From Polyangiaceae bacterium (GTDB lineage: Bacteria > Myxococcota > Polyangia > Polyangiales > Polyangiaceae): a stretch of 26,860 bases of DNA. Both the position numbers and the translations under genes were made by a program. Of this stretch, positions 6,592-25,491 are shown one piece after another. Where the stretch lies: the NCBI GenBank assembly GCA_025936205.1, contig JAICTU010000049.1, positions 1 through 26,860 on the forward strand, given 5' to 3'. The first letter of the stretch is position 1; every line of letters begins with the position of its first letter. The notes under the pieces are model-generated. The model did no database searches and was not told the origin of the DNA. It saw nothing but the letters and a program-made list of their open reading frames with translations.

Positions 6592-8775
6592 ATGAGGCGG
6601 TTCGAGTCATGGGTCAAGGTCGGAGCCCCCTTCCGGCTCGGCTTGCTGCTGGCAGCGTGCGGGCTCTCTGCTTGCAGTGACGCCGGACACGGCAAGAACT
6701 CCAGCAGTTCCGGCGCAGGGCAGCCGGGCACCGGCCCCGGCGCATCGGGCGCCCCTGCCACGGGAGGCGCCACGAACGAAGGCGCTCCCAATCCCAGCGG
6801 GCTCGCCACCGGCGACCCCGACGGCCCCATGAACGCGCCCTGGACGGAGCCGTTGCCCCCGAGCAGCACCCTGCGCAAGATCAAGAGCACGCTCACCGGG
6901 CTCGGCCCGACCGACGCGGAGCTCGCTGCCGTCGGCTCGGACCTCAACGCGCTGCCGGGCCTGATCGACGGCTGGATGGCGACCCCCGAGTTCGAGAGCA
7001 AGATGCTGTTCTTCTTTCAGAACGCGTTTCAGCAGTCGTCGCTGGCCGTGCTCGACTTCGAGTTCCAGCTGCGCAAGCGCCCGGGCGCCTTCGACCTGCC
7101 CTACGACACCTTCGGCGACAACGCGTTCCCGCTGCTGTTCCAGAACCTGAAGGAGAGCTTCGCACGGACCGCGCTGCAATTGATCGCCGAGGGCGCGCCG
7201 TTCAGCGACGTGCTCACCACGCAGCGCTTCATGATGACCACGGCGCTCGAGAGCCTCTACCTGCAGATCGAGATGCCGTATGACATCCACACCACCAACT
7301 ACAAGTACAACCAGGGCAGCCGTCCCCCGATCGAGGAGACGCTCGATCCCAACAGCCCCAACTACCTGACCTTCGGCTACGTCGCTCCTGCGACCACCAC
7401 GACCAGCCGCAAGTTCAACAACAGCTGCGCGGGCGACGCGACCAAGGTCTCCGTCTTCCCGGGCAACACCTACGTGTTCCAGATGCTGCTCGGCGCGGTG
7501 CCGCGAGATTCTGGCGACAACTCCGCCGGCACCAGCAACCTGGGCTGCATGGAACACGCGGCGCAGCCGTACTTCACGGCCAGCGATCTCTCCGACTGGC
7601 ACATGGTGACGATCACGCAGCAGGGGACGCCGCTGCGCGCCTTCGACTTGCCGGCGCTGCGCCAGGCGACCACGCTCTCCTCCAAGCTGCCGCGGGTCAG
7701 CTTCTTCACCACGCCGGCGTTCCTGGCCGTGTGGAACACCAACGACAGCAACCAGCACCGCGTCACGGCCAACCAGGCGCTGCTGGTCGCGCTGGGTCAG
7801 GGCTACACCAGCGCCGCAGCCGCCATCCCCGTGCCGCCGAACCTGGCCGCGGTCGACGGCGAGCACGCCGTGAACACCTCCGTCTGTTACGGCTGCCACG
7901 TGAGCCTGGACCCGATGCGGCAGTTCTGGGGCAACTTCTACGACTTCAACGACAAGGCGGACGGGAAGAAGGCCAACATTCCTCCCGCGTTTGCCTTCGG
8001 CGACGTCAGCGCCGAGGGCAAGTCGCTGCTCGATTTTGGCAGCTTCCTGGCGCAGATCACGGACCAGCGCATGCAGGGCGACAAGGTGAATCGCTTCGCG
8101 CTGGCCATGACGCAGAAGCTCTGCTTCTTCGCCAATTCCTCGCGCTGCCTGGAAACGGACCCGGAGATGCGCCGCATCGCCCGGCAGTTCGAGAGCTCGA
8201 ACTTCGACTTCAAGGGGCTGGTGCGCGAGCTCTTCTCTTCACCGCTGGTGACCAGCGCGTCCAGCACCGAGACGGCGGCCAGCGACGGCGTGACGATCAG
8301 CGTGGCGCGGCGCGACCAGCTGTGCGCGGCGCTGTCGAGCCGCCTGGCGCGCCCGGATCTGTGTGAGATCACCGTGCCCACGCCCACCGACGTGACCAGC
8401 GCGCTGAACCGCCTGGCGGGCGCGCTGCCGGCGGACGGCTTCAGCCGCGGCACCGAGTTCCCGGTGACGGCGCCGGACCCGAACCTGTTCTATCGCGCGG
8501 CGAGCGAGCTCGTGTGCGAGGCGATCGCCGCCAAGGTCGTCGACGGCGACAATCCAGTGTACCGCAATGCGGACGCGGCCAAGGCCATTCCGGACATGGT
8601 CGACCGCGTGATGGGTGTGCCGAGCACGGACCCCAACTACGCCGCGGCCGTGCAAGCCCTGACCGAACACCACGACGCCGCGCTCGCCATGGCCGGCACC
8701 AGTGCCACCGCCGCCCTGCGCTCGACCTTCGCGGCCGCCTGCCAGGCGCCCACCACGCTCTCGATGGGGATCTGA
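6592..8775 (+). CDS. CxxCH-motif secreted lipoprotein (DUF1592/DUF1585-like), partner of a DUF1501 protein
   Basis: 727 residues. The N-terminus is a lipoprotein signal with candidate lipobox cysteines at 23 (LAAC) and 28 (LSAC), followed by a Gly/Ser/Pro-rich spacer to about residue 85. One haem-c-type motif, CYGCH at 432-436, lies in VCYGCHVSLDPMRQFWGNFYDF, a pattern typical of the DUF1588/DUF1592-type proteins of planctomycetes and myxobacteria. The C-terminal part (FALAMTQKLCFFANSSRC and SSNFDFKGLVRELFSSPLVTSA) resembles the DUF1585 region. The start has a good ribosome site (GTGAGG, about 8 nt upstream). The stop lies 2 bp before the DUF1501 gene, so the two are an operon; this pairing is usual for the family. 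The biochemical role is not established. Location outside the inner membrane is inferred. Confidence 0.85.
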   Translation: MRRFESWVKVGAPFRLGLLLAACGLSACSDAGHGKNSSSSGAGQPGTGPGASGAPATGGATNEGAPNPSGLATGDPDGPMNAPWTEPLPPSSTLRKIKSTLTGLGPTDAELAAVGSDLNALPGLIDGWMATPEFESKMLFFFQNAFQQSSLAVLDFEFQLRKRPGAFDLPYDTFGDNAFPLLFQNLKESFARTALQLIAEGAPFSDVLTTQRFMMTTALESLYLQIEMPYDIHTTNYKYNQGSRPPIEETLDPNSPNYLTFGYVAPATTTTSRKFNNSCAGDATKVSVFPGNTYVFQMLLGAVPRDSGDNSAGTSNLGCMEHAAQPYFTASDLSDWHMVTITQQGTPLRAFDLPALRQATTLSSKLPRVSFFTTPAFLAVWNTNDSNQHRVTANQALLVALGQGYTSAAAAIPVPPNLAAVDGEHAVNTSVCYGCHVSLDPMRQFWGNFYDFNDKADGKKANIPPAFAFGDVSAEGKSLLDFGSFLAQITDQRMQGDKVNRFALAMTQKLCFFANSSRCLETDPEMRRIARQFESSNFDFKGLVRELFSSPLVTSASSTETAASDGVTISVARRDQLCAALSSRLARPDLCEITVPTPTDVTSALNRLAGALPADGFSRGTEFPVTAPDPNLFYRAASELVCEAIAAKVVDGDNPVYRNADAAKAIPDMVDRVMGVPSTDPNYAAAVQALTEHHDAALAMAGTSATAALRSTFAAACQAPTTLSMGI

Positions 8776-14703: not shown

Positions 14704-16245
14704 TCAGCAGATGCCGCGGGAGCGCAGCGCCGCGAGTGCATTTTGCAGGCTGCCGCCGGTGTCGACGATGAGATGTTCGCCGGCAGGCAGGCCGTCGATG
14801 GGTTCGAACTGGGCGACGAATTGCTCCAGAATCTCGCTGCGGCCGTCGCTTTCGTTGGGGCTGCGCGTGCGTTCGGCGAGCCGGGCGCGGCATACCTCGA
14901 GCGGCGCCCGGCACTCGATCAGCAGGAACGGCGCCTGGAAGCGCCGTGCCAGGTCGCGGGCGGCGTTGCGTGATGCACTGCTCCGAAACGAGGCATCGAG
15001 CACCACCGATCGACCGGACTCGAGCACGACGGCCGCGCGTCGCAGCACTTCGCGGTAGACGGCATCGCTCGCGGCCTCGGAGTAGTTGGCGTCGAACGCG
15101 GCGTCGGAGAGCGGCGTGGTCGCGCTCACCCCGCGCAGGGACTTGCGCGTGCGGTCGGAGCTGATGCGGGGCGCGGCGATCTCGGCAGCAAGCGCGCGCG
15201 CCAGGGTGCTCTTGCCACTCGCGATCCACCCGGCCAGCGCAAACACGCGCGGCGCGCTGTCCGGGGAGCGCTCGCTCGCCAGCGCCAGCAAGAAGTAGCA
15301 ACGGACGAGGGACTCCAGCTGCCGGCGCGCGGGCAGTGGCGCGGAGCGCAGGCCGAGGGCGCCGACCTTGGCACGCACGTAGGCGCGATAGCTCTCATAA
15401 AAATCGACGAGCGCGTACAGGTCATGGTCTTCGCTCTCTTCGGCGTAGGCCGCGAGAAATCTCTCCTTCAGGTCGACGCGACCCTGGAAGGCGAGGTCCA
15501 TGGACAGGAAAGCGACGTCGGCGCAGACGTCGGCGAAGCGGAAGCGTTCGTTGAATTCGATGCAGTCGATGATCGTCGGCTCGCCCGCGTCGTCGATGTA
15601 GACGTGCTCGAGTCGCAGGTCTCCGTGGCCGTCGCGGATGCGCCCGCCCTGCCGGCGTTGCTCGAACAGGTCTCGGCGCTGCTCGAGGAAGCCGAGTTGT
15701 GCTGCCTCGACTTCGCGCTGCTGGGATTCGGAGGCCAGCTCGGCCAGCAGTTGATGCGCCTGCGCGAAGTTCTCCAGCACGTTGCGGCGGATGCATTCGA
15801 CGCGCCCGAACTCGCCGATCTCGGCGTTGCCCGGCGCCGCACGGTGAAAGTGCGCGAGCATGCGCGCCAGGCGATCGAGGTGTTCGGGGCTGAGGCGGCC
15901 CTCGGCGAGGCGCACGTCGGCGCGATCTCTGTCGTCGAGGCGGCGCATCTTCACCGCCCAGTCGACGACCGGGCCTGAACCCGCGAGCTCATGCAGGCCA
16001 TCGGCGCGGCACGTAACGGGGACGACACCCTGGTACACGCCGGGCGCGAGGCGGGCGTTCAAGCGTGCTTCGTTCTCGCAGGCGAGCCGGCGCTGATCGA
16101 GCGTGGAAAAGTCCAGGAAGCCGAAGTTGACGGGCTTCTTCACCTTGAAGACGGTGTCGGCATGCAAGAAGACCCACGAGATGTGGGTCTCGCGTACCTC
16201 TCGAGCCGACTGCGCCAGGTCTTGCTTCAAGTCCGCCACTCGCAC
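14704..16245 (-). CDS. Fused APH-like / P-loop (AAA_33-type) kinase, Rv2004c-like
   Basis: 513 residues from a GTG at 16245, with GGGAAG just upstream. The first two thirds resemble an aminoglycoside-phosphotransferase fold: VFKVKKPVNFGFLDFS (nucleotide-binding strand with lysines), catalytic HGDLRLEHVYID at 207-218, and IDCIEFNERFRFADVCADVAFLSMDL, which holds the metal-binding Asp. The last third is a P-loop kinase: Walker A GWIASGKST at 339-347, SSDRTRKSL, VVLDASF, and an R-rich lid near 450-462. The same domain order and length are known from Mycobacterium tuberculosis Rv2004c (498 residues), a DosR-regulon member of unknown function. Neither substrate is known. It is divergent from the P-type ATPase gene (57 bp) and followed by the di-iron protein gene. 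Confidence 0.88.
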   Translation of the reverse strand: MRVADLKQDLAQSAREVRETHISWVFLHADTVFKVKKPVNFGFLDFSTLDQRRLACENEARLNARLAPGVYQGVVPVTCRADGLHELAGSGPVVDWAVKMRRLDDRDRADVRLAEGRLSPEHLDRLARMLAHFHRAAPGNAEIGEFGRVECIRRNVLENFAQAHQLLAELASESQQREVEAAQLGFLEQRRDLFEQRRQGGRIRDGHGDLRLEHVYIDDAGEPTIIDCIEFNERFRFADVCADVAFLSMDLAFQGRVDLKERFLAAYAEESEDHDLYALVDFYESYRAYVRAKVGALGLRSAPLPARRQLESLVRCYFLLALASERSPDSAPRVFALAGWIASGKSTLARALAAEIAAPRISSDRTRKSLRGVSATTPLSDAAFDANYSEAASDAVYREVLRRAAVVLESGRSVVLDASFRSSASRNAARDLARRFQAPFLLIECRAPLEVCRARLAERTRSPNESDGRSEILEQFVAQFEPIDGLPAGEHLIVDTGGSLQNALAALRSRGIC

Positions 16246-16302
16246 CTTCCCAATGCCCCGCGCTCCGACCTATGTCTGGGGCTTTCCAAGAAGAATAGAG
16301 CC

Positions 16303-18774
16303 ATGTCTGCAATGGGTGCGCCAGCCGTCGTCAGGGAAGCCGAGCGCTCGGCTGATGAACCGGGTCAGAGGCAACTCGGCCTCAGCGAGGCCGCCGCCAG
16401 GGAGCGGCTCGCGCAGGATGGTCCCAACGAGCTGGCGCGAAAAGCGCCGCCTTCGGCGCTGCGCCTGTTGGCCCGCCAATTTCAGAGCCCCGTGGTGGGG
16501 CTGTTGTTCGTGGCGAGCGTGGTGTCGGCGCTGGTCGGAGAGGTCGTCGACGGGCTGGCGATCGCCGTCGTATTGATCGTGAACGCCGTCGTGGGCTTCC
16601 TGCAGGAGCATCGTGCCGAGGCGGCCGTGCAAGCCTTGCGCAATCTGACCGCGCGCCGGGCGCGCGTGGTGCGGGCCGGAGCAGCGCGCGTGGTTCCCGC
16701 GGCGGAGCTGGTGGTCGGAGATCTGCTGCTGCTCGAAGCGGGGGACGTGATCGCGGCGGATGCGCAGGTGCTGGAGGCGAACCTGCTGGCGGTGAACCAG
16801 GCCAGCCTGAGCGGTGAGAGCGAGCCGGTCGGCAAGAGCGCGGAGCCCGCAGCGTCCGACGTGCCGCTGCTGGAGCGAGCCGACCGGGTGTTCATGGGCT
16901 CATCGGTGGCGCGCGGCTCGGGGCTCGCTCGGGTGGTCGCCATCGGGATGCAGACCGAGCTGGGGCGCATCGCGCACCTGGTCGAAAGTGTAGAACGCAG
17001 CGCGACGCCGCTGGAGGAGCGGCTCGCGCGTGTGACGCGCGGGCTGATCTACGTCTGTCTGGGCATCGTGGTGCTCGTGGCCGCGCTCGGGCTGCTGCGC
17101 CGCGTGCCGGCGTTCGAGGTGCTGATCAGCGCTGTTTCACTGGCGGTGGCTGCCATTCCCGAGGGGCTGCCCGCGCTGGTCACGGTGGCGCTCTCGCTCG
17201 GGGTGCGGCGCATGTCGGCACGGCGGGTGCTGGTGCGCCGGATGTCGGCGGTGGAGACGCTGGGCTGCACCACGGTGATCTGCACCGACAAGACCGGCAC
17301 GTTGACCGCGGGCGAGATGAGCGTTCGGGAGCTGTGGGGCGCGGACCAGCGCGCGCTGCTCGACGCGGCGGCGGCTTGTTGCGACAGCGAGCTGGGCACG
17401 GAGGGGCGTCCCGGCATCGGGGATCCCACGGAGCTGGCGCTCCTGCACGCTGCCCAGCTGCGCGGCATCACGCGCGCGGAGATCGAGCGCGAGCGTCCTC
17501 GGGTGCGGGTGGAGCCCTTCGATGCGCAGACCAAGCGCATGCTGATCGAGCGCGCCGATCGGGTGGTGTACGTGAAGGGCGCGCTGGAGGTGGTGCTGCC
17601 GTTGTGCCCGGAGCACGATCCGGCAGCGCCGGCGCAGGCCACGGACATGGCGGCGCGCGGCCTGCGCGTGTTGGCGGTGGCGAGCGGACCCGCACAGGAG
17701 CCTCTGCAGCTGTCGTTCCGCGGGCTGTGCGGGATCGCAGATCCGCCGCGCGCGGAAGTGCCGGCGGCGGTCGCGGCCGCGCGCAGCGCCGGTGTTCAGG
17801 TGGTGATGATCACCGGGGATCATCCGACCACGGCGCAGGCGATCGCGCGCGAGCTGGGCATCGTGGCCGCCGGCGAGTCGCCGGAAGGGCGGGTCCACGC
17901 GCGCACCACGCCCGAGCAGAAGCTCGCGATCGTGCGCGAATGGAAGAGCAAGGGCGCGATCGTGGCCATGACGGGCGATGGCGTGAATGACGCGCCCGCC
18001 CTGCGCGAGGCGCACATCGGCATCGCCATGGGGCGCACCGGCACGGAGGTGACGCGCGAAGCGGCCGACGTGGTGATCTCGGATGATAACTTCGCGAGCA
18101 TCGTGGCCGCCGTCGAGGAGGGGCGAGGGATCTTCGAGAGCATCCGCAAGGCGCTCGTGTATCTGCTCTCGACCAACGCCGCCGAGCTGCTCGTGATGCT
18201 GGTGGCGGCGCTGGTGGGCTTGCCGCTCCCGCTGCTGCCGGTGCAGCTCTTGTGGGTGAATCTGGTCACGGACGCGCTGCCGGCGCTGCCGCTGGCGATG
18301 GACCCACCTGCGGGCGATGTCCTGCGGCGGCCGCCCCGCGATCCGCGCGAGCCGATCATCGGTCGCGCGGAGTGGTGGACGGTCGCGGTGGTCGGTGCTC
18401 TGCTCGCCGCTGCCACGCTCGCCGCCTTTCTGTTCTTCGAGCGCTCGGGTGGCGTCGCGAGCGGGCGCTCGGCGGCGTTCTCGACGCTCGTGTTCGGGCA
18501 GCTGGGGCTGGCGCTGGCGGCACGCGACGATCGGCGCACGTATTGGCAAACACGGCCGCTCGGCAATCGCGCCCTGCTGGCGGTGGTCTGCGCGTCGTTC
18601 GTGCTGCAGCTCTCGCTCTACCAGTTCGCGGGGGCACGACGTGTGTTTCAGCTCGAAGGGCTCGGCGCGGCGGAGTTGCTACAGCTGGTAGCGTTGGCGC
18701 TGGCCCCCGTCAGCCTGGTGGAGCTGAACAAGCTCGTGCGGGGGTGCCGCACGAGCTCGCGCGCCCGGGCTTAG
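16303..18774 (+). CDS. P2A-type (calcium-class) cation-transporting P-type ATPase
   Basis: 823 residues from the ATG at 16303. In order: N-terminal cation-ATPase domain (LGLSEAAARERLAQDGPNEL); actuator loop LSGESEPVGK at 169-178; TM4 motif AAIPEGLPA with Glu287; phosphorylation site CTDKTGTLT with Asp329; an abbreviated nucleotide domain; KGALE; hinge TGDGVNDAPALREAHIGIAMG; TM5 NAAELLV and TM6 WVNLVTDALPALPLAMDP. The Glu/Asn/Asp set in TM4-6 matches the calcium sites of SERCA-like pumps, so Ca2+ (possibly Mn2+ or another divalent ion) export is likely. M. tuberculosis ctpF of the DosR regulon belongs to the same class. The frame is open far upstream but there it runs antisense to the kinase gene. 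Its stop overlaps the convergent HPF stop by three bases. No clear promoter was found on its own strand. Confidence 0.92.
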   Translation: MSAMGAPAVVREAERSADEPGQRQLGLSEAAARERLAQDGPNELARKAPPSALRLLARQFQSPVVGLLFVASVVSALVGEVVDGLAIAVVLIVNAVVGFLQEHRAEAAVQALRNLTARRARVVRAGAARVVPAAELVVGDLLLLEAGDVIAADAQVLEANLLAVNQASLSGESEPVGKSAEPAASDVPLLERADRVFMGSSVARGSGLARVVAIGMQTELGRIAHLVESVERSATPLEERLARVTRGLIYVCLGIVVLVAALGLLRRVPAFEVLISAVSLAVAAIPEGLPALVTVALSLGVRRMSARRVLVRRMSAVETLGCTTVICTDKTGTLTAGEMSVRELWGADQRALLDAAAACCDSELGTEGRPGIGDPTELALLHAAQLRGITRAEIERERPRVRVEPFDAQTKRMLIERADRVVYVKGALEVVLPLCPEHDPAAPAQATDMAARGLRVLAVASGPAQEPLQLSFRGLCGIADPPRAEVPAAVAAARSAGVQVVMITGDHPTTAQAIARELGIVAAGESPEGRVHARTTPEQKLAIVREWKSKGAIVAMTGDGVNDAPALREAHIGIAMGRTGTEVTREAADVVISDDNFASIVAAVEEGRGIFESIRKALVYLLSTNAAELLVMLVAALVGLPLPLLPVQLLWVNLVTDALPALPLAMDPPAGDVLRRPPRDPREPIIGRAEWWTVAVVGALLAAATLAAFLFFERSGGVASGRSAAFSTLVFGQLGLALAARDDRRTYWQTRPLGNRALLAVVCASFVLQLSLYQFAGARRVFQLEGLGAAELLQLVALALAPVSLVELNKLVRGCRTSSRARA
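16308..16323 (-). promoter_or_regulatory. Sigma-54 promoter for the kinase/di-iron operon
   Basis: Minus strand TGGCGCACCCATTGCA compared with TGGCACG-N4-TTGCA: GG and GC are ten bases apart, and TGGC and TTGCA are intact. The expected start of transcription near 16297 leaves about a 52-base leader before the GTG at 16245. The site lies within codons 2-7 of the divergent ATPase gene. Confidence 0.6.
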
Positions 18775-19100
18775 CCGGCCCGGCGCCGTTCCGTGCGCGT
18801 CTCCAGCTGGCGCGCGGCGGCGTCGAAGGCGCCGCGGATGGCGTTCTGCAGCGGCTCGTGGCTACAGCGACCATCGGGTTCGCGCGTCACGATCACCTCG
18901 TCTCCCGCGGTGGTGATGTCGAGCCGCACGCAGAAGGCGCCGCCTTTGTGCTGGTGGCGGTGAGGTTGATCCACCACCACGTGGCAGCGCTGGATCTGGG
19001 AACCCACTCGCTCCAGACGCTCGGCGCGCTCGCGGACGAGCAGCTCGATCGCGGGGGAAGGGGACATGCCTCGAAACGTGATCTGCAGGTGGTCTTGCAT
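18771..19100 (-). CDS. Ribosome hibernation promoting factor, short HPF/RaiA type
   Basis: 109 residues from the ATG at 19100. LQITFRGMSPSPAIELLVRERAERLERVGSQIQRCHVVVDQPHRHQHKGGAFCVRLDITTAG is the compact beta-alpha-beta HPF/YfiA fold, with the conserved basic HRHQHKG loop, and the C-terminal helix AIRGAFDAAARQLE closes it. Such proteins bind the small-subunit decoding centre and shut down or dimerise ribosomes in starvation, stationary phase or hypoxia. This short form lacks the C-terminal dimerisation domain of long HPF. No Shine-Dalgarno sequence precedes the ATG, and a strong sigma-54 site would start the mRNA about two bases before it. A further ATG at 19124 lies inside that promoter and is disfavoured. 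The stop overlaps the ATPase stop. Confidence 0.88.
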   Translation of the reverse strand: MQDHLQITFRGMSPSPAIELLVRERAERLERVGSQIQRCHVVVDQPHRHQHKGGAFCVRLDITTAGDEVIVTREPDGRCSHEPLQNAIRGAFDAAARQLETRTERRRAG

Positions 19101-19112
19101 GTGCGAGAACAG

Positions 19113-19128
19113 TGCATTCCGCATGCCA
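19113..19128 (-). promoter_or_regulatory. Sigma-54 promoter for the HPF gene
   Basis: Minus strand TGGCATGCGGAATGCA, with GG and GC ten bases apart; one of the best matches in the window. The predicted start is about 19102, immediately before the ATG at 19100. Confidence 0.75.
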
Positions 19129-19169
19129 GTGCGGTATAGCGGGTTCCGCGTGGTGCATTGGGGATGCGC

Positions 19170-19184
19170 CGGCAGCAACTGCGG
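19170..19184. promoter_or_regulatory. Possible second, degenerate enhancer site
   Basis: CGGCAGCAACTGCGG keeps GCAG-N3-CTGCG of the 15-bp motif; its centre lies 30 bp from the main site at 19200. Weak alone; reported because similar second sites lie 28 bp from the main site in the two other divergent regions. Confidence 0.35.
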
Positions 19185-19199
19185 TGTGGGGCCGCAGAA

Positions 19200-19214
19200 G
19201 CGCAGTTCTTGCGC
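19200..19214. promoter_or_regulatory. Enhancer-like palindrome between the HPF and CBS genes
   Basis: GCGCAGTTCTTGCGC: perfect 5-bp arms around five bases. It lies 93 bp from the HPF -12 element and 53 bp from the CBS -12 element. The same pattern is found at 20627 and 24686, in the other divergent sigma-54 regions. Confidence 0.65.
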
Positions 19215-19245
19215 AGGGGGATGGGGAAACCGGCCTGAGTCGAAG

Positions 19246-19261
19246 CGGCACGCGCCGTGCA
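19246..19261 (+). promoter_or_regulatory. Sigma-54 promoter for the first CBS gene
   Basis: CGGCACGCGCCGTGCA: GGCACG intact, ten bases between GG and GC, then GCA. The predicted start near 19272 gives a leader of about 84 bases that contains a good ribosome site (AGGAG). Confidence 0.72.
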
Positions 19262-19355
19262 GGCCCGGGATCACGGCCCTGAATAGCGGCAGGGCAAGGA
19301 ACGCGACCCTCCCGGTCCGATGCGAACCGTACGAGAAATTGCAGGAGAAGTGGCC

Positions 19356-20096
19356 ATGGCGAAGACAGTTGCCGAAATCATGCATCCAGAGTTCTTTCAC
19401 GCGTCTCAGAGCGACTCGATCGGGCAGCTGCTCCACGACATGGCGGAGCTGGGCATCGGCTCCGCTCCCGTGCTCGACCTGGCGGGCCACCCGCTGGGCA
19501 TGGCTACCGTGCGCGAGATCGACGGCTGCCGGCGCGTGGAAGAGCTGTGCGATCAGCTGAAGCAGCCCGTGGTGACCGTCCACCAGGACACGACCATCGA
19601 GTCGGCGGCACGCACGTTGGCGACGCATGAAGCCGACACGCTGGTGCTCGTCGACGACCACGGGGTGGCGGTGGGCGCACTACGGGCGCTGGATCTGCTG
19701 CGCGCCGTGCTGGGGCTCGCCCCGAGCCGGCCCGAGCGGGAGCGCAGCGGAATTTCGCGCATCGGCTGGTCTCGCGGTGCGCTGCTCAACCTGGACTCGG
19801 TGCATCACGCGCCGCAGGCACCGGGCATCATCCTGTTGGATCCCGGCGGGAGCGGCGCCCACCCCAACATCGTCTGGGCGGAAGCGGCCGAGAACATCCG
19901 CGAGCGTCTGGATCAGATGCTGCGCGAGCCCCAGGATGAGCCCGTCCTGGAACAGTTGCTGGGTGCCTATCCGCGCAGCGTCATCTTTCACGTGCTGGTG
20001 GTCAATGAGCCCGAGCGCCGCGCCCGCTTGTTGCGTTCGCTGCGCGCGGTGCTGGCGCGGCGCCACGTCGAGCCGGCGCCGGCTGCCACCGACTGA
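19356..20096 (+). CDS. Two CBS domains with an unknown C-terminal domain
   Basis: 246 residues from the ATG at 19356, chosen because AGGAG lies about 10 bases upstream. A CBS pair (Bateman module) fills residues 5-120: TVAEIMHPEFFHASQSDSIGQLLHDMAELGIGSAPVLD, then VVTVHQDTTIESAARTLATHEADTLVLVDDHGVAVGALRALDLL. Such modules usually bind adenine nucleotides. Residues 130-246 form an additional domain that I do not recognise, starting RIGWSRGALLNLDSVHHAPQ, with a Gly-rich turn DPGGSGAHPNIV at 162-173, a helix ENIRERLDQML, and a strand SVIFHVLVVNEPERRARLLRSL. It may read out the nucleotide state. It lies under a sigma-54 promoter, divergent from HPF and convergent with the next CBS gene, 4 bp between stops. 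Confidence 0.85.
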   Translation: MAKTVAEIMHPEFFHASQSDSIGQLLHDMAELGIGSAPVLDLAGHPLGMATVREIDGCRRVEELCDQLKQPVVTVHQDTTIESAARTLATHEADTLVLVDDHGVAVGALRALDLLRAVLGLAPSRPERERSGISRIGWSRGALLNLDSVHHAPQAPGIILLDPGGSGAHPNIVWAEAAENIRERLDQMLREPQDEPVLEQLLGAYPRSVIFHVLVVNEPERRARLLRSLRAVLARRHVEPAPAATD

Positions 20097-20100
20097 GCCT

Positions 20101-20538
20101 TCAGGAGCGCGCCGGGTGAGCCGCTTCGCGCAGCCACTCGGCGAATTTCCTGCAAGCGTCGACCGTCGTGAAGATGCCCGCGACGCGGTCGTCCTGCGCC
20201 ACGACGGCGCAGCCCGCGCCCCGCTCCGACATGCCCGAGAGCACCTCGTCGAGCGGAGCGGCGATGTCCACGAGATAGGGGTCCCTGGCGCACAGCTCGC
20301 GGACGCCGAGCTTCCAGGGATCGGCGCCCGGGCGAGCCAGCGCCAGCTCGAGGTCGCGCGCGCTGAGCACACTGTAGACCTCGCCCGCGCTGGTGACCGG
20401 CAGATGGTGGATGGCGCGCCCCGCGAGCATGCGCTCCGCGTCGCCGGCATGGCGATCGATCTCGATGGAGTAGGGAAAGGGCGTCATGACCTGGCCGATA
20501 CGGGGGATGGTGCCGGAAAGGTGCGGATTGCGTGCCAT
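20101..20538 (-). CDS. Stand-alone CBS-pair protein
   Basis: 145 residues from the ATG at 20538, with AGGAG about 6 bases upstream. First CBS motif: GQVMTPFPYSIEIDRHAGDAERMLAGRAIHHLPVTSAGEVYSVLSARDLELAL. Second: VRELCARDPYLVDIAAPLDEVLSGMSERGAGCAVVAQDDRVAGIFTTVDACRKFAEWL. The ending GIFTTVDACR is shared with the next CBS protein (GIFTTVDACQ), so the two are paralogues. No enzyme or transporter domain is attached; such proteins (for example M. tuberculosis Hrp1) bind nucleotides and are induced by hypoxia. A sigma-54 site 33 bp upstream fits the start codon. Confidence 0.86.
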   Translation of the reverse strand: MARNPHLSGTIPRIGQVMTPFPYSIEIDRHAGDAERMLAGRAIHHLPVTSAGEVYSVLSARDLELALARPGADPWKLGVRELCARDPYLVDIAAPLDEVLSGMSERGAGCAVVAQDDRVAGIFTTVDACRKFAEWLREAAHPARS

Positions 20539-20570
20539 GCAGAGCTCCTGTCTACCTCGCAAAAATCTTT

Positions 20571-20586
20571 CGCAAGGAGCATGCCG
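20571..20586 (-). promoter_or_regulatory. Sigma-54 promoter for the second CBS gene
   Basis: Minus strand CGGCATGCTCCTTGCG: GGCATG-N4-TTGC with the ten-base spacing. Predicted start near 20560, with a short leader carrying AGGAG before the ATG at 20538. An A/T-rich tract follows the -12 element. Confidence 0.75.
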
Positions 20587-20626
20587 GGGCGCGTGGCGCT
20601 GTCCAGCGGCAAGAGGCGACGCGGGA

Positions 20627-20641
20627 ACGCAGGAATTGCGT
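20627..20641. promoter_or_regulatory. Enhancer-like palindrome between the second and third CBS genes
   Basis: ACGCAGGAATTGCGT: perfect 5-bp arms ACGCA/TGCGT around five bases. It is 62 bp from the second CBS gene's -12 element and 103 bp from the third's. A degenerate second copy, CTGCAAGAGCTGCTG, lies at 20655-20669 (centre-to-centre 28 bp). Confidence 0.65.
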
Positions 20642-20722
20642 GAGGACCCGGAGTGCTGCAAGAGCTGCTGCGTAAGCGCTCGCAAATCCGTCAAAAAGCC
20701 GTGTCTGCGCCGCTGATGCGTC

Positions 20723-20738
20723 TGGCATGTGTCCTGCA
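20723..20738 (+). promoter_or_regulatory. Sigma-54 promoter for the third CBS gene and the monooxygenase gene
   Basis: TGGCATGTGTCCTGCA: only one base differs from TGGCAYG-N4-TTGCA. Predicted start near 20749; the leader carries AGGAGA before the GTG at 20823. Confidence 0.78.
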
Positions 20739-20822
20739 ACTGGACGGCTCGTCAGCAGCGGACTGGAACGTGGCCAGGGTGTTCTGGTCGCGGCAGCTCG
20801 AGGCTGCAGAGGAGAGATTGTC

Positions 20823-21233
20823 GTGAGCAAGCCCATCCCCACCATCCAGAAGTACATGACCACCACCCCGCACACCATCGGCAGCGAGCAGACGATCGCG
20901 AAGGCCTCCTCGCTGATGAGCGAATATCGCATCCGGCACCTGCCCGTGCTGCACGGAGGGAGGTTGCTCGGTGTGCTGTCGGATCGGGACGTCAAGTTGA
21001 TCGAGAGCTTCCGGGATGTCGACGCGACCACGACGCGCGTGGAAGAGGCGATGACGGAGCAGCCCTACACCGTGGATCCCGAAACACCCCTCGACCAAGT
21101 CGTGCGCACCATGGCGGAGAAGAAGCTCGGCTCGGCGGTGGTCCTGCAAAACCAGAAGGTGGTGGGCATCTTCACCACTGTGGACGCCTGCCAGGCGCTC
21201 TCCGAGTTGCTGCAGACTCGGCTCGCGAAGTAA
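20823..21233 (+). CDS. Stand-alone CBS-pair protein
   Basis: 136 residues from a GTG at 20823, with AGGAGA about 7 bases upstream. A single CBS pair: IQKYMTTTPHTIGSEQTIAKASSLMSEYRIRHLPVLHGGRLLGVLSDRDVKLI, then VEEAMTEQPYTVDPETPLDQVVRTMAEKKLGSAVVLQNQKVVGIFTTVDACQALSELL. RIRHLPV and GVLSDRDV are textbook CBS motifs. It is a paralogue of the neighbouring minus-strand CBS protein, each having the second-repeat ending GIFTTVDAC. It is probably a nucleotide-sensing regulator like Hrp1. The flavin monooxygenase gene follows after 59 bp on the same strand with no promoter seen between, so both are probably one transcript. Confidence 0.88.
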   Translation: MSKPIPTIQKYMTTTPHTIGSEQTIAKASSLMSEYRIRHLPVLHGGRLLGVLSDRDVKLIESFRDVDATTTRVEEAMTEQPYTVDPETPLDQVVRTMAEKKLGSAVVLQNQKVVGIFTTVDACQALSELLQTRLAK

Positions 21234-21292
21234 TCCCCACATGCGTGCGCCGGCGGCGCCGCCATTAGAAAAGAGCCAGTGGAGAAGACGCC

Positions 21293-22513
21293 ATGAAGGA
21301 CATGGAAGCTTGTGTGGTCGGCGGAGGTCCGATCGGTCTGTTTGCCGCCGCCTGTCTCCAGGACAGGGGCGTGGAGGTCGGCGTGATCGACGCCGAGTGG
21401 GAGCGACCGGTGCGCAGCTACGCCTGTGGCTTGCACCCGGAGACGCTGCGCCAGTTCGATCGTCTGGGGCTGATGCCGTCGTTGCAGGAGGTCGCGCACC
21501 GCATCGATCGCCTGTTCGTTGGCAGCCCGGAGAAGCAGGGCACGGTGATCGATCTCTCCATCGTGGGCGGTCCGTTTCCGCATGTGCTCACCCTGCGCCA
21601 GTCCGATCTGCAGGATCTGCTGGCGCAGCACCTGGCTCAGCTGGGCGTGGAGGTTTCGCTGGGGCAAGAGGTCAAGACGATCAGCGTGGGGCAGGGGGCG
21701 GTCCACTGCGTTTCGGCACCGCAGCAGCGTGGCGCCGGTGCTCCGGGAAAAGGCGCTTCCGCGCTCCCGCCCGGTGACGCCATCGTGCGGCGAGCCGAAT
21801 ATGTGATCGCTGCCGACGGCTTCGATTCGGTGTGCCGTCGCGCACTCGGCATCGAGCTGATCGACGCCAAGCACAGTGAAGCGTTTGCGATCTTCGAATT
21901 CGAGGCGGACCTGGCCGAGCTACAACACGAGGCCTACATCGTGCTGGCAGCGGACGGCGTGAGCGCTTTCTGGCCTCTGGGGCCGACGCTGGGTCGCTGG
22001 ACGTTTCAGATCTGGGAGCAGCTCGACGAGAATCCGTCGCTGGAGGCGCTGCAGCAGCTGCTGCGCGAGCGCGCTCCGTGGTTTCGCCCGCGTCCGGAGC
22101 AACTCGGCTGGGCCACCACCTCCACCTTCGAGCGCCGCATCGCGAGTCGCTTCGGCTCCGACCGGCTGTGGTTAGCGGGGGACGCCGCCCACGTGACGAC
22201 TCCCATCGGCTTTCAGAGCATGAACCGTGGCTTTGTAGAGGCCAGCGAGCTCGCCGAGCTGGTCAGCAATCGCTTGCACGGCGATGTGGCAGCTCGTGGC
22301 TTCCAGCGCTTCGAGCGCGAGCAGCAGCAGGAGTGGCGGCGCCTGCTCGGCCTCGGCACGGCGCCTTTACCCGGTTGGCTCTCGATCGCCGATCAGGCGC
22401 GGCTCGCCCCGTGCTTGCCCGCGTCCGGGGTCGATCTCGACGCGCTGCTGGCGGAGCTCAGCCCTTCGCTGCGCCCTCAGGCGCCAGCAGCCTCCAGCCA
22501 TCGCACCATCTGA
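21293..22513 (+). CDS. FAD-dependent monooxygenase, PHBH-like
   Basis: 406 residues. The ATG is preceded by GGAG. VVGGGPIGLFAAACLQDRGVEVGVID at 8-33 is the FAD dinucleotide fold; VIAADGFDSVCRRALGI (about 171-187) is the DG motif that helps bind NAD(P)H; and RLWLAGDAAHVTTPIGFQSMNRGFVEASELAELV is the GD motif with the flavin-binding aspartate, in the form seen in p-hydroxybenzoate hydroxylase-type class A enzymes. A short Gly/Ala insert at about 143-160 differs from common members. The substrate could be an aromatic compound or a quinone-like molecule; nothing nearby fixes it. It is probably cotranscribed with the CBS gene upstream. Its last 37 bases overlap the end of the convergent thioredoxin gene. 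Confidence 0.88.
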   Translation: MKDMEACVVGGGPIGLFAAACLQDRGVEVGVIDAEWERPVRSYACGLHPETLRQFDRLGLMPSLQEVAHRIDRLFVGSPEKQGTVIDLSIVGGPFPHVLTLRQSDLQDLLAQHLAQLGVEVSLGQEVKTISVGQGAVHCVSAPQQRGAGAPGKGASALPPGDAIVRRAEYVIAADGFDSVCRRALGIELIDAKHSEAFAIFEFEADLAELQHEAYIVLAADGVSAFWPLGPTLGRWTFQIWEQLDENPSLEALQQLLRERAPWFRPRPEQLGWATTSTFERRIASRFGSDRLWLAGDAAHVTTPIGFQSMNRGFVEASELAELVSNRLHGDVAARGFQRFEREQQQEWRRLLGLGTAPLPGWLSIADQARLAPCLPASGVDLDALLAELSPSLRPQAPAASSHRTI

Positions 22514-22914
22514 GGCGCGGCGACCAGCCCCGACTGGGCCGAGCGCACCTGGCCATTGCTCAGCACCACGAAGTGCGGAATGCCGTGCACCTGGTAGCGG
22601 GCCGCGAGCTCCGGGTGCTGGTCCGTATCGACTTTGAGCACCAGGGCGCGCCCGGCCATCTGCTGGGCCACTTGCTTCACGTGCGGGGCCGCCATCCGGC
22701 AGGGCCCGCACCAGGCTGCCCAGAAGTCGACCAGGATCGGCACCTTGGCCTCGCGCAGCACGCTGTCGAACTCTTCCGTGCTGGCGTCGAGCGGCTCTGC
22801 GAGCGGGGGCAGCGCCGACTTGCAGGCGCCGCAGCGCCCGGTGTCGGCGAGGTGCTTGGCCGGGATGCGATTTTGCTGGCTACAGTGGGGGCAGGTTCGA
22901 ATCAAGGTGTTCAC
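22477..22914 (-). CDS. trxC: Thioredoxin 2 with N-terminal zinc ribbon
   Basis: 145 residues from a GTG at 22914 (GGGGACGG upstream), close to the length of E. coli TrxC. An N-terminal zinc ribbon has CPHC at 8-11 and CGAC at 28-31; the thioredoxin fold follows with the redox motif WCGPC at 68-72, DFWAAWCGPCRMAAPHV, and the cis-proline in HGIPHFVVL. It reduces protein disulfides in the cytoplasm and TrxC forms are typically induced by oxidative stress. It follows the two unknown membrane protein genes on the same strand (61-bp gap) and is likely the last gene of that sigma-54 operon. No convincing promoter of its own was seen. Confidence 0.93.
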   Translation of the reverse strand: MNTLIRTCPHCSQQNRIPAKHLADTGRCGACKSALPPLAEPLDASTEEFDSVLREAKVPILVDFWAAWCGPCRMAAPHVKQVAQQMAGRALVLKVDTDQHPELAARYQVHGIPHFVVLSNGQVRSAQSGLVAAPQMVRWLEAAGA

Positions 22915-22975
22915 CCGTCCCCACAAGCTGCGTCCGCGCGGCGCGGCGCGCAAGGGGCCTGCGCCCAGCGTGGCG

Positions 22976-23707
22976 CTACGGCGAGTGCGAACTGCCGGGC
23001 ACTCCGTTCAGGCGGCGCCGGAAGGCCGCCCATGTGAGTGATGCCAGGAGCGCCAAGAGCAGATTCCAGCCCGCGAAGGCGACCAGGCCGGGCCCCGTCA
23101 TCATCCACGCCGGCCACAGCACCGCCGAAAGCGTACCGAGCACGCTCACGACACCGTTGGCCACGAAGGTCGCGCGCGCGGCGCGCTCGAGCGGCGTCCG
23201 ATCGAACACGCCCGCGAGCAGCCAGGTGGCGATGCCGGCGAAGCCCCAGCCCCACATCTCGATTGCCCAGGCCAGGCTGCGCGGGTTCGACATCGAGAGC
23301 ATCGCGAGCAGCGGGGCGTCCGCTGGGTCGTAGCTGCTGGACAGCGCCGGGACGTACGAGGTCTGCAGCGCGTAGTTCAGACAGATGAGACAAGCGAACA
23401 CCGCGCTCGTCAGCAGGGCCAGCGCGGCGTGTGCGCGATCCCGGTGCAGCACCTCCAAGCTCGCAATCAGGAGCAACAGGCTGAGCACCAGCAGCAGACC
23501 GCCGGCGTAGGGCACGATCTGCACGGGGTGGAAGCTGTGCGCGAAGCGCTCGGCGCCGCTCCAGCGGGGTTGCGGATGGGTTGCCTCTACCAGCGCGACC
23601 GCCAGCGGACCTGACGCGAGAATGCCGAGCAGCGTGCCGACGCTGCCTTGGACGACCCTGCGATAGCGCAGGGCGGTATTCGTTGCGAGGTCAGTGAGCA
23701 TGAGCAT
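22976..23707 (-). CDS. Unknown membrane protein, second of an overlapping pair
   Basis: 243 residues with about six hydrophobic helices (for example VGTLLGILASGPLAVALV, YAGGLLLVLSLLLLIASLEVL and ALLTSAVFACLICLNYAL). No motif of a known transporter or enzyme was recognised. A conserved-looking loop includes SYDPADAPLLAMLSMSNPRSLAWAIEMWGWGFAGIATWLLAGVF. The start overlaps the end of the upstream membrane protein gene by 17 bases (ATG at 23707; another at 23701), so translation is likely coupled. The pair may form one complex, but that is inference. Thioredoxin 2 follows. Confidence 0.72.
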   Translation of the reverse strand: MLMLTDLATNTALRYRRVVQGSVGTLLGILASGPLAVALVEATHPQPRWSGAERFAHSFHPVQIVPYAGGLLLVLSLLLLIASLEVLHRDRAHAALALLTSAVFACLICLNYALQTSYVPALSSSYDPADAPLLAMLSMSNPRSLAWAIEMWGWGFAGIATWLLAGVFDRTPLERAARATFVANGVVSVLGTLSAVLWPAWMMTGPGLVAFAGWNLLLALLASLTWAAFRRRLNGVPGSSHSP

Positions 23708-24554
23708 CCGCCTCGACGGGCGTCGGCAGCTCGATCGCCCGAAAGAATGGCACCGCCAGTGCGGTCGCGACCATGGGGATCAACGCAAACGGGGCCGCCT
23801 CGAACGCGCTGCGGCCGGCACTGAGCGCACTGCAGACGACCATCGCCGTGAGCGCCAAGCCCATGCAGATGGAGTTGACGAGATAGATCGCCGCTACCAC
23901 CACCGCGCCGGCCTTTCGCCGGAGTAGCAGCAGCGCCGTCGCGATGCCGAGCGGGACCTGCAGACCGAGATCGAGAGCGTGCACCACATGCCCGATCGCG
24001 TCGATGCCCGATGGCCACCCGAACGCACCGGCGGCGCTCTGGGCAACGATGCCCTTCAACCAGGCAAGTGAAAGGAACAGCGCCGACGCCAGCGCCAGCG
24101 CTGCCACTGCGCGGCGTGGCAGCTCGACCGGGAGAGTGGCGTCGAGCTCACGGTGAGCCGCGACGGCGCCCTGAATCAATGCCGGAAGGGCGCAGGCAAA
24201 GGCGCACACGTACAGCAGATACAGCGCGGTAAAAGGCGGGCTGACGGCCAGCTCGAGGTAGGTGTAGACCAAGTACGCGAGCGTGCCGAGCCAGCCCAGG
24301 TGCGCGCTGCGCGAGCTCGCCTTGCGCGCGCCGAGCAGGCAAACCGCGAGCAACGGCAGCGCGACCACCAGCGTCACCAGGCTCCAGCCGCGAGCCTCGG
24401 CCAGCGCGGGGTTGAAGCCCGACGAGTCGGGCGGAGGAGGAAAGGAGTCGCTCGTGATCAGGGTGATCGCGGAAGCCGCACCGGCGCATGCAACCGAGAC
24501 GATGGTCAGCGCCTGGGCAGAGCGCGAGGGAGGGCGGATCGAGCCGTGGGTCAT
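23691..24554 (-). CDS. Unknown membrane protein, first gene of a sigma-54 operon
   Basis: 287 residues from the ATG at 24554, the only plausible start in the frame near the first helix. About seven hydrophobic helices, beginning ALTIVSVACAGAASAITLI and then GWSLVTLVVALPLLAVCLLG. A periplasm-like loop SDSFPPPPDSSGFNPALAEARG (about 35-56) is proline-rich. No known family was recognised. There is no Shine-Dalgarno sequence, and a strong sigma-54 site places the transcription start about one base before the ATG, which predicts a leaderless message. It overlaps the next membrane protein gene and probably continues into trxC. Confidence 0.72.
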   Translation of the reverse strand: MTHGSIRPPSRSAQALTIVSVACAGAASAITLITSDSFPPPPDSSGFNPALAEARGWSLVTLVVALPLLAVCLLGARKASSRSAHLGWLGTLAYLVYTYLELAVSPPFTALYLLYVCAFACALPALIQGAVAAHRELDATLPVELPRRAVAALALASALFLSLAWLKGIVAQSAAGAFGWPSGIDAIGHVVHALDLGLQVPLGIATALLLLRRKAGAVVVAAIYLVNSICMGLALTAMVVCSALSAGRSAFEAAPFALIPMVATALAVPFFRAIELPTPVEADAHAH

Positions 24555-24565
24555 GCCGACGCGAT

Positions 24566-24581
24566 TGCATGCGTTGTGCCC
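24566..24581 (-). promoter_or_regulatory. Sigma-54 promoter for the membrane pair-trxC operon
   Basis: Minus strand GGGCACAACGCATGCA: GGCAC and TGCA with exact spacing. Predicted start near 24555, one base before the ATG at 24554. Confidence 0.72.
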
Positions 24582-24685
24582 ATGCGCGCCGTTCGACTCC
24601 GCGCTGACCACATGGCGTCGTGGCGGACCTCCGCTGTGGCAATTCGGGCGGGCGCGAAACGTCGCGCTTCCACCGGTCGGGCTGG

Positions 24686-24700
24686 ACGCAGGATCTGCGC
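24686..24700. promoter_or_regulatory. Enhancer-like motif midway between divergent sigma-54 promoters
   Basis: ACGCAGGATCTGCGC, the third copy of the R-CGCAG-N3-YTGCG-Y motif. Its centre (24693) is 126 bp from the -12 element of each of the two divergent promoters. A weaker copy, ATGCGGGCCTTGCGT, lies at 24714-24728, 28 bp further on. Confidence 0.68.
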
Positions 24701-24804
24701 CCAGGGTTCCGTCATGCGGGCCTTGCGTCTCCCGCGCCGGGTGCTCGCGTGCGCCAAGCCAGGCCGCTGCGGCCTGCCGGTGGCAGAGCGAGCTGGACCC
24801 AGAG

Positions 24805-24820
24805 TGGCATACGTCCTGCT
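24805..24820 (+). promoter_or_regulatory. Sigma-54 promoter for the outer-membrane-like gene
   Basis: TGGCATACGTCCTGCT: TGGCAT, ten-base spacing, TGCT. Closely similar to the site at 20723. Predicted start near 24831, then AGGAGAGAAG before the ATG at 24856. Confidence 0.76.
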
Positions 24821-24855: not shown

Positions 24856-25491
24856 ATGGCCAAGCATTGCTGGTTGGTGACGGCGTTGTTGGCGCTGAGC
24901 AGCGCCTCCGCTCATGCGGAGGCGACCTCCGAGAAGGCAGAGGACGTCGGCGCACCGCCGCTGTTCTCATCCGTCCGTCATGTCGGCGGATACGGTGGAC
25001 CGAGCGTCATGTACTCGCGCATCGCGGGCAAGGACGGGGTCCTGGTGGGCGGGGAGGGCGCCGTGTTGCTCGATCACCGGCTCGCCCTGGGAGGGGCCGG
25101 CTATGGCTGGACGCGCGACAGCAGCGCTCCCGCCGACGTGGACGGCGTGCCACGCGATCTCACGGTCGGCTACGGAGGCTTTTTGGTGCGCTATTCGTTG
25201 CTCACTGGCGGACCGATCTATGGCTCCCTGGGCGCCCTCGTGGGCGCGGGCGGCATCACGCTCGCCCGGAACAGCGACGATGACCGGAGCGAAGACGCGC
25301 GGAGCGACCAGAGCGATAGCTTCTTCGTGTTCGAGCCCCAGCTCTCCGTGCAGGTGAACCTGCTGAGCTGGATGCGCATCGGCTTGCAGGGTGGTTACCG
25401 GATCACGAGCGGGCTCGGTCATCTCGGTTACACCGAGCAGGACATCGACGGAGTGACGCTGGGAGGAACGCTGCAATTTGGCGGCCTCTGA
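24856..25491 (+). CDS. Putative outer-membrane beta-barrel protein
   Basis: 211 residues, with AGGAG ahead of the ATG. A clear Sec signal peptide (CWLVTALLALSSASAHA) is cut after about residue 21. The mature chain has alternating short Gly/Tyr-rich strands: HVGGYGGPSVMYSRI, VGGEGAVLLDHRLALGGAGYGWTRD, VGYGGFLVRYSLL, FFVFEPQLSVQVNLLSWMRIGLQGGYRI, ending in TLGGTLQFGGL. This is typical of small outer-membrane barrels or related surface proteins, although the last residue is Leu rather than the usual Phe. A charged stretch RNSDDDRSEDARSDQSD interrupts the middle and may be a loop. Function unknown; sigma-54 control suggests a stress role. The protein with two haem c motifs is encoded next. Confidence 0.8.
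   Translation: MAKHCWLVTALLALSSASAHAEATSEKAEDVGAPPLFSSVRHVGGYGGPSVMYSRIAGKDGVLVGGEGAVLLDHRLALGGAGYGWTRDSSAPADVDGVPRDLTVGYGGFLVRYSLLTGGPIYGSLGALVGAGGITLARNSDDDRSEDARSDQSDSFFVFEPQLSVQVNLLSWMRIGLQGGYRITSGLGHLGYTEQDIDGVTLGGTLQFGGL

Follow-up and report, generated by a model that had tools for sequence, protein, structure and literature searches.

Three intergenic regions in a 26,860-bp stretch of DNA from a Polyangiaceae bacterium (contig JAICTU010000049.1, hereafter the window), each located between divergently oriented genes, carry a short palindromic motif together with a second, weaker or degenerate copy, and we consider it highly probable (roughly 0.86) that these pairs act as enhancers for an NmpR-type regulator, an NtrC-like sigma-54 activator that would switch on the flanking genes at low oxygen. 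The computational evidence comprises the motif itself, its pairing, the adjoining sigma-54-like elements, conservation, and linkage to NmpR-clade genes in relatives. NmpR is presumed to be encoded in the genome of the window, where it would bind the sites and fire both promoters of each divergent pair in response to a low-oxygen signal. The initial annotation of this DNA had already taken the repeats for paired sites of a sigma-54 activator, a proposal now supported by how the motif is conserved and spaced and by its linkage to an activator clade, while its statement that no described regulator fits the motif has to be corrected, as NmpR of Myxococcus xanthus binds GCGCA-N5-TGCGC in electrophoretic mobility shift assays (EMSA; PMC11841059). 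According to that study, NmpR is an NtrC-like activator of an oxygen-utilisation regulon, its sites drive sigma-54-dependent lacZ expression, GCA-N5-TGC is present in every bound site, five of the seven bound promoters contain two sites 14-15 bp apart, the promoter tested requires its sigma-54 element, and hypoxic induction via NmpR was shown for one target (PMC11841059). Besides this work, a literature search for these half-sites with sigma-54 or myxobacteria returned a Plesiomonas study.

The strong copies are found at 19200..19214 (GCGCAGTTCTTGCGC; region 1, between the genes for HPF and CBS1), 20627..20641 (region 2, between CBS2 and CBS3) and 24686..24700 (region 3, between a membrane protein and a beta-barrel protein gene), and all three 15-mers read exactly as the initial annotation had given them. 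Compared with GCGCA-N5-TGCGC, the site at 19200 is perfect, the one at 24686 has one outer difference and the one at 20627 has two, with the GCA-N5-TGC core exact in all three. An NtrC-type site was considered and rejected, because the half-sites differ from the TGCAC of NtrC. A weaker copy had also been noted 28-30 bp from each strong one. The copies at 19170..19184 (CGGCAGCAACTGCGG) and 20656..20670 (CTGCAAGAGCTGCTG) have an intact core, whereas in region 3 the partner at 24714..24728 (ATGCG-N5-TGCGT) has lost its left half-core and gives no core match. The intervals between the copies are therefore 15 bp in region 1, 14 bp in region 2 and, with the degenerate partner, 13 bp in region 3.

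Could such repeats simply arise by chance in GC-rich intergenic DNA? The window has a GC content of 68%, and a single match to R-CGCAG-N3-YTGCG-Y is not rare at this size: 0.39 are expected from window shuffles, as against the four strand-matches present (the site at 24686 matches on both strands and is counted twice), and four were reached in two of 100 shuffles, the largest count being five. The palindromic form RCGCA-N5-TGCGY describes the motif better, with four sites in the window, three of them within the three divergent regions that make up only 840 of the 26,860 bp (3.1%; binomial P 1.2e-4, calculated post hoc with the motif already known). Moreover, when the three regions were dinucleotide-shuffled 300 times, at most one of them contained a site. 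Together with the conserved exact spacing and the genome-wide association described below, this placement leaves chance hardly credible as an explanation. The fourth palindrome, at 2793, lies within coding DNA of a hybrid kinase gene (1758-4349, minus strand) whose product contains PAS, GAF and kinase domains and two receiver stretches, and a further site at 16627 (GTGCAAGCCTTGCGC), inside the open reading frame (ORF) of an ATPase, was excluded from the counts.

Six sigma-54-like elements flank the strong sites, each less than 500 bp from a site and oriented like its gene, and all are imperfect, with two to three mismatches to TGGCAC-N5-TTGCW. In region 1 they are located at 19113..19128 (minus strand, TGGCATGCGGAATGCA, for HPF) and 19246..19261 (plus strand, CGGCACGCGCCGTGCA, for CBS1; the weakest case, in which the leading T is missing), in region 2 at 20571..20586 (minus strand, CGGCATGCTCCTTGCG, for CBS2) and 20723..20738 (plus strand, TGGCATGTGTCCTGCA, for CBS3), and in region 3 at 24566..24581 (minus strand, GGGCACAACGCATGCA, for the membrane gene) and 24805..24820 (plus strand, TGGCATACGTCCTGCT, for the barrel gene). 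Measured by hand from the middle of the motif to the C in the GC of the -12 element, the distances are 93 and 53 bp in region 1, 62 and 103 bp in region 2, and 126 bp both ways in region 3, so that the range of 53-126 bp and the symmetry of the third site reported previously are borne out by the coordinates. A palindrome between divergent promoters is typical for local repressors too, and the sites might belong to an unrelated repressor or general DNA-binding protein that shares these promoters by coincidence. We regard this as very unlikely, since no repressor-type gene was recognised beside the sites (several ORFs of the window have no Pfam match), and the distance to the sigma-54 elements, the 29-30 bp pairing and the linkage to genes for sigma-54 activators are in keeping with an enhancer.

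Conservation in relatives, which had been suggested as a test, was found, and with exact spacing. A search with the CBS3 gene in a collection of genome contigs returned 72 loci, of which 49 from Myxococcota were used for the upstream motif count (L021, L040 and L052-L072 were set aside, belonging to other groups by title, with L070 a fragment). In the 170-bp stretch that precedes the CBS gene, CGCA-N5-TGCG occurs 21 times in 19 of the 49 loci, compared with 0.9 expected, while no other spacer length between 0 and 13 gives more than three occurrences and the everted control TGCG-N5-CGCA gives one; the looser YGCA-N5-TGCR is present in 29 of the 49. The comparison with coding DNA proposed at the outset was likewise favourable, in the form of upstream stretches set against whole loci and divergent regions against the window. 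Near sigma-54-like elements, 34 of 42 core-to-core distances are either 28-32 (23 cases) or 17-20 (11 cases), a count that leaves out L052-L072 and includes any pair of two strict sites twice. Of 25 distances at sites away from such elements, 16 are likewise 19 or 28-30, suggesting that the exact sigma-54 pattern misses some promoters or that the spacing is not tied to sigma-54. Several of the named homologues of the CBS3 and HPF proteins belong to Polyangiaceae.

In the nearest relative (G001), whose CBS3 and HPF are 86% and 67% identical to those of the window, the following genes share one contig. HPF is divergent from CBS3 with a site pair between them, and the sites upstream of HPF are at -113 and -83 with the sigma-54 element at -28, compared with -114, -84 and -28 in the window. 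Further along the contig come a FAD monooxygenase homologue that has a site pair and sigma-54 element of its own, genes for thioredoxin-like and membrane proteins (named by eye) with a site and element, and then a universal stress protein gene, again with site and element, the NmpR-clade gene, and directly after it the relative of the P-type ATPase of the window. Separated by 11 kb from the CBS gene, the NmpR-clade gene encodes receiver, sigma-54 activation and Fis-type helix-turn-helix domains, with a helix region in common with the Myxococcus protein. HPF homologues number 17, in 11 of 19 genomes; a core site is located in the upstream stretch scanned for six of the 17, including that of G001, and four of these six also have a sigma-54-like element, although individual HPF cases are uncertain because the bare core is common.

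We were curious to know whether promoters of this kind accompany an activator of the NmpR type. Searching 14 genomes with an alignment of the NtrC-type activators of L103, L104, L039 and L047 yielded, among the matches listed, 24 genes of at least 680 bits, with at least one per genome, followed by a drop to 576 bits, and the best NmpR-clade scores in five additional genomes were 679-749. Clade membership was set at a cut-off of 1e-190, which is our own choice. In G001-G012, the genomes covered by a scan for the motif plus a sigma-54 element (G013 and G014 were therefore omitted), such a promoter is located within 7 kb of nine of 22 NmpR-clade genes and of none of 110 other sigma-54 activators among the matches listed; without the two query seeds (G008 and G011), seven of 20 NmpR-clade genes remain near a motif promoter. 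The scan itself gave 56 matches in the 12 genomes compared with 30 for the reversed control, and these precede genes for a cbb3 oxidase, a P-type ATPase beside cbb3 genes, an AAA_33 kinase, a sigma-70-family factor, a CBS protein and others. An NtrC-type activator was present in two of five inspected match neighbourhoods (L103 and L104), and also in two of the CBS loci (L039 and L047). Genes for a sigma-70-family-like factor behind the motif and a sigma-54 element were seen in three genomes (L079/L107, L095 and L096; checked against Pfam for the first only), and two activator genes of a different kind in Desulfobulbus loci (L067 and L068). For an ORF in L106, Pfam returned nothing at 1e-8, and its nitroreductase-like name comes from reading only.

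The association extends to a sample of 140 Myxococcota genomes, which includes G001, G012 and G017, where the gene was already known. Paired sites number 185 (control 74) in the 34 genomes with an NmpR-clade gene and 113 (control 194) in the 106 without, palindromic pairs being counted on both strands in the sites and the control alike. The difference between genomes with and without the gene has a Mann-Whitney P of 3e-9, compared with P 0.17 for the control pattern. In one further locus (L179 4210-6609, G016), genes for a cytochrome c552 of the ammonia-forming nitrite reductase family and a NapC/NirT-type protein have a motif pair upstream (6578/6597), and no sigma-54 match was found near them with the pattern used.

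The NmpR-clade activators, including a Myxococcus member, have a C-terminal helix region of approximately STxRAAExLxxSxRxIQYxL, some differing at one position. Nine other activators form a separate group in the tree (support 0.993) and contain no QY in this region, while a tenth labelled as 'other' (G014_x) falls inside the NmpR clade. About 5 kb from the Myxococcus member there is an nmpU-like protoglobin gene, and the member itself follows a CBS-like gene whose two sites are separated by 14 bp, the same spacing as published for mxan_4236 (PMC11841059); we therefore take this member as NmpR by position. The sites could instead be used by another activator of this clade rather than by NmpR itself. 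The candidate is a subclade of ten NmpR-like activators (L147-L149, L151-L155, L183 and L185), six of which, judged by eye, adjoin an ABC transporter gene, and its helix region is closely similar (SxRKIQYKLHEY). Their neighbourhoods are mostly devoid of motif plus sigma-54 promoters, and G001 has a single clade member above the cut-off, located in the hypoxia island, and we thus think it improbable that this subclade acts at the sites of the window.

Several observations weigh against an NmpR-type regulon in the window. The presence of NmpR in the genome to which the window belongs is a presumption, and motif promoters are scarce around the ten-gene subclade just described. The scan for the motif plus a sigma-54 element is noisy, with the control exceeding the real matches in four of the 12 genomes, and it is biased, because 11 of the 12 were picked for the motif at the CBS locus and seven of the 56 matches are those very CBS promoters; besides, an NtrC-type activator was seen in two of the five inspected neighbourhoods. 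Four of the 34 genomes with an NmpR-clade gene lack any paired site, and four of the 106 without the gene have at least five matches. No YGCA-N5-TGCR was found within 170 bp upstream in 20 of the 49 CBS loci. As for oxygen sensing, G001 gave neither a protoglobin match nor a strong FixL-like match. In M. xanthus itself only five of ten newly predicted promoters were bound, and the unbound ones had other spacings or mismatches (PMC11841059). Region 3, with its degenerate partner, may therefore be weak or false.

If NmpR acts here as we suppose, falling oxygen would be perceived by an oxygen-sensing kinase that phosphorylates it, and phosphorylated NmpR would then oligomerise on the site pair between each set of divergent genes and loop to sigma-54 RNA polymerase at one or both flanking promoters. 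The predicted switched-on set comprises HPF, the three CBS proteins, the FAD monooxygenase, the thioredoxin-membrane group and the outer-membrane protein. The kinase of M. xanthus, NmpU, carries a protoglobin domain (PMC11841059). Protoglobin matches were found in 16 of the 19 genomes searched, in 13 of them within about 6 kb of an NmpR-clade gene as counted by hand, and were not found in G001, G008 and G017. In the latter two, a FixL-like PAS kinase adjoins the NmpR-clade gene (L104 4283-5503 in G008; L181 5423-6619 in G017). The heme histidine and the regulatory arginine are functional residues of the FixL PAS domain, and both are aligned in the G008 and G017 domains, which match FixL structures with E values of 2.4e-29 (1dp6) and 9.1e-22 (1d06). 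A query with the G017 PAS domain against eight genomes gave strong matches only in G017 itself and G008. A swap of the oxygen sensor is possible in these two genomes, which have no protoglobin match. In the G001 island, the PAS domain of a hybrid kinase is more weakly related to FixL (about 1e-17), its best match being another sensor PAS. FixJ, the partner of FixL in rhizobia, is a LuxR-type regulator, whereas the neighbouring regulator in G008 and G017 is NtrC-like; the arrangement is seen neither in the window nor in G001.

The promoters show a further regularity. The distance from the beginning of the best sigma-54-like element to the start codon is 26-33 bp in 29 of 36 CBS loci, compared with a mean of 2 and a maximum of 6 in 200 mononucleotide shuffles, with the bin of -33 to -26 chosen after the data were seen and rough element weights of our own; 13 of the 49 loci were omitted for an unsure start or a distant match (L033, L035, L037, L041-L048, L050 and L051). 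Transcription from sigma-54 promoters begins 12 nt after the C of the -12 element, so that an element about 28 bp before the start codon would leave leaders of only a few bases in most CBS loci. The HPF and membrane genes of the window fit this geometry, their elements beginning 28 and 27 bp before the start codons, while the predicted leaders are about 22 nt for CBS2, about 25 nt for the barrel gene and longer for CBS1 (about 80 nt) and CBS3. Leaderless promoters at every NmpR target were considered and rejected, because the likely element of the Myxococcus CBS gene, identified by eye, precedes the start codon by about 59 bp, unlike those promoters of the window that imply leaderless mRNAs. 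Whole 70S ribosomes are able to translate leaderless mRNAs. It is a tentative and rather doubtful thought that, in many Myxococcota, NmpR-type promoters with an element about 28 bp upstream and transcription starting about 2 nt before the start codon give leaderless CBS and HPF mRNAs, possibly keeping hypoxia genes translated while ribosomes are parked, a built-in escape from self-induced hibernation. A literature search for leaderless transcripts with sigma-54 or Myxococcus xanthus returned, among the matches listed, nothing on the NmpR regulon.

The predicted targets, in the right third of the window, are arranged as follows. HPF, an S30AE-type ribosome hibernation factor, is encoded at 18771..19100 on the minus strand; its start at 19100 is our choice, and the Pfam match (PF02482) was made with the longer reading 18771-19661. 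CBS1 (19356..20096, plus strand) and CBS2 (20101..20538, minus strand) both match PF00571, and the CBS1 protein as query found no relative in the collection of genome contigs. CBS3 (20823..21233, plus strand; Pfam match), with the motif upstream of many of its homologues elsewhere, is followed 59 bp further on by the gene for an FAD-binding monooxygenase-like protein (21293..22513, plus strand; PF01494), which is probably cotranscribed with it. On the minus strand, two membrane-like genes with no Pfam match (23691-24554 and 22976-23707) and one for a thioredoxin 2-like protein (22477-22953; Pfam match) probably form a single transcript (22477..24554). The outer-membrane beta-barrel-like protein at 24856..25491 (plus strand) is a weak assignment, PF13505 being under the cut-off. 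At lower coordinates than HPF, a P-type cation ATPase gene occupies 15991..18774 (plus strand; ORF limits, with the true start probably later). Elsewhere in the window, an ORF at 6592-8775 encodes 727 residues with high GC at third codon positions and no Pfam match. Rfam matched nothing in the window.

The consensus, the sigma-54 promoters and a CBS target are shared between the window and the M. xanthus regulon, and the pairing at 14-15 bp is seen in regions 1 and 2. DosR of mycobacteria, with which a dormancy regulon is associated, is a LuxR-type regulator with a different site and no sigma-54, and its targets include a CBS protein and a cation ATPase. The gene set predicted here is partly similar to the DosR regulon and may resemble it functionally, an analogy of function only; universal stress proteins are in the DosR regulon, as told in PMC11841059, and the hibernation factor RafH is raised in mycobacteria in hypoxia (PMC10799931). 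The published NmpR targets comprise a CBS protein, a universal stress protein, a P-type ATPase with a cbb3 oxidase, hemN with a hemerythrin, pilR and the nmp genes (PMC11841059). They overlap with the motif-linked genes of relatives in the CBS protein, the universal stress protein and the cbb3 oxidase with its ATPase, while the predicted targets of the window add HPF, thioredoxin and the FAD monooxygenase, and its island holds three divergent promoter pairs. As a protoglobin kinase, part of the NmpRSTU system, was not found in G001, we file the system as an NmpR-type regulon rather than as NmpRSTU. The hibernation factor as a target, the FixL-like kinases where globin kinases are missing, and the sigma-54 elements that precede start codons by about 28 bp and so imply leaderless mRNAs are possibly new; the main text of PMC11841059 contains neither 'ribosom' nor 'hibernation'.

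The regulon, described for seven promoters of M. xanthus, would thereby be extended to uncultured relatives, an NmpR-clade gene being present in 34 of the 140 Myxococcota genomes sampled, and in some Myxococcota oxygen sensing would be linked to ribosome hibernation. Moreover, the Nmp targets in Anaeromyxobacter were called unknown by the authors of 2025 (PMC11841059), and the same kind of motif search would make target lists for them predictable and testable.

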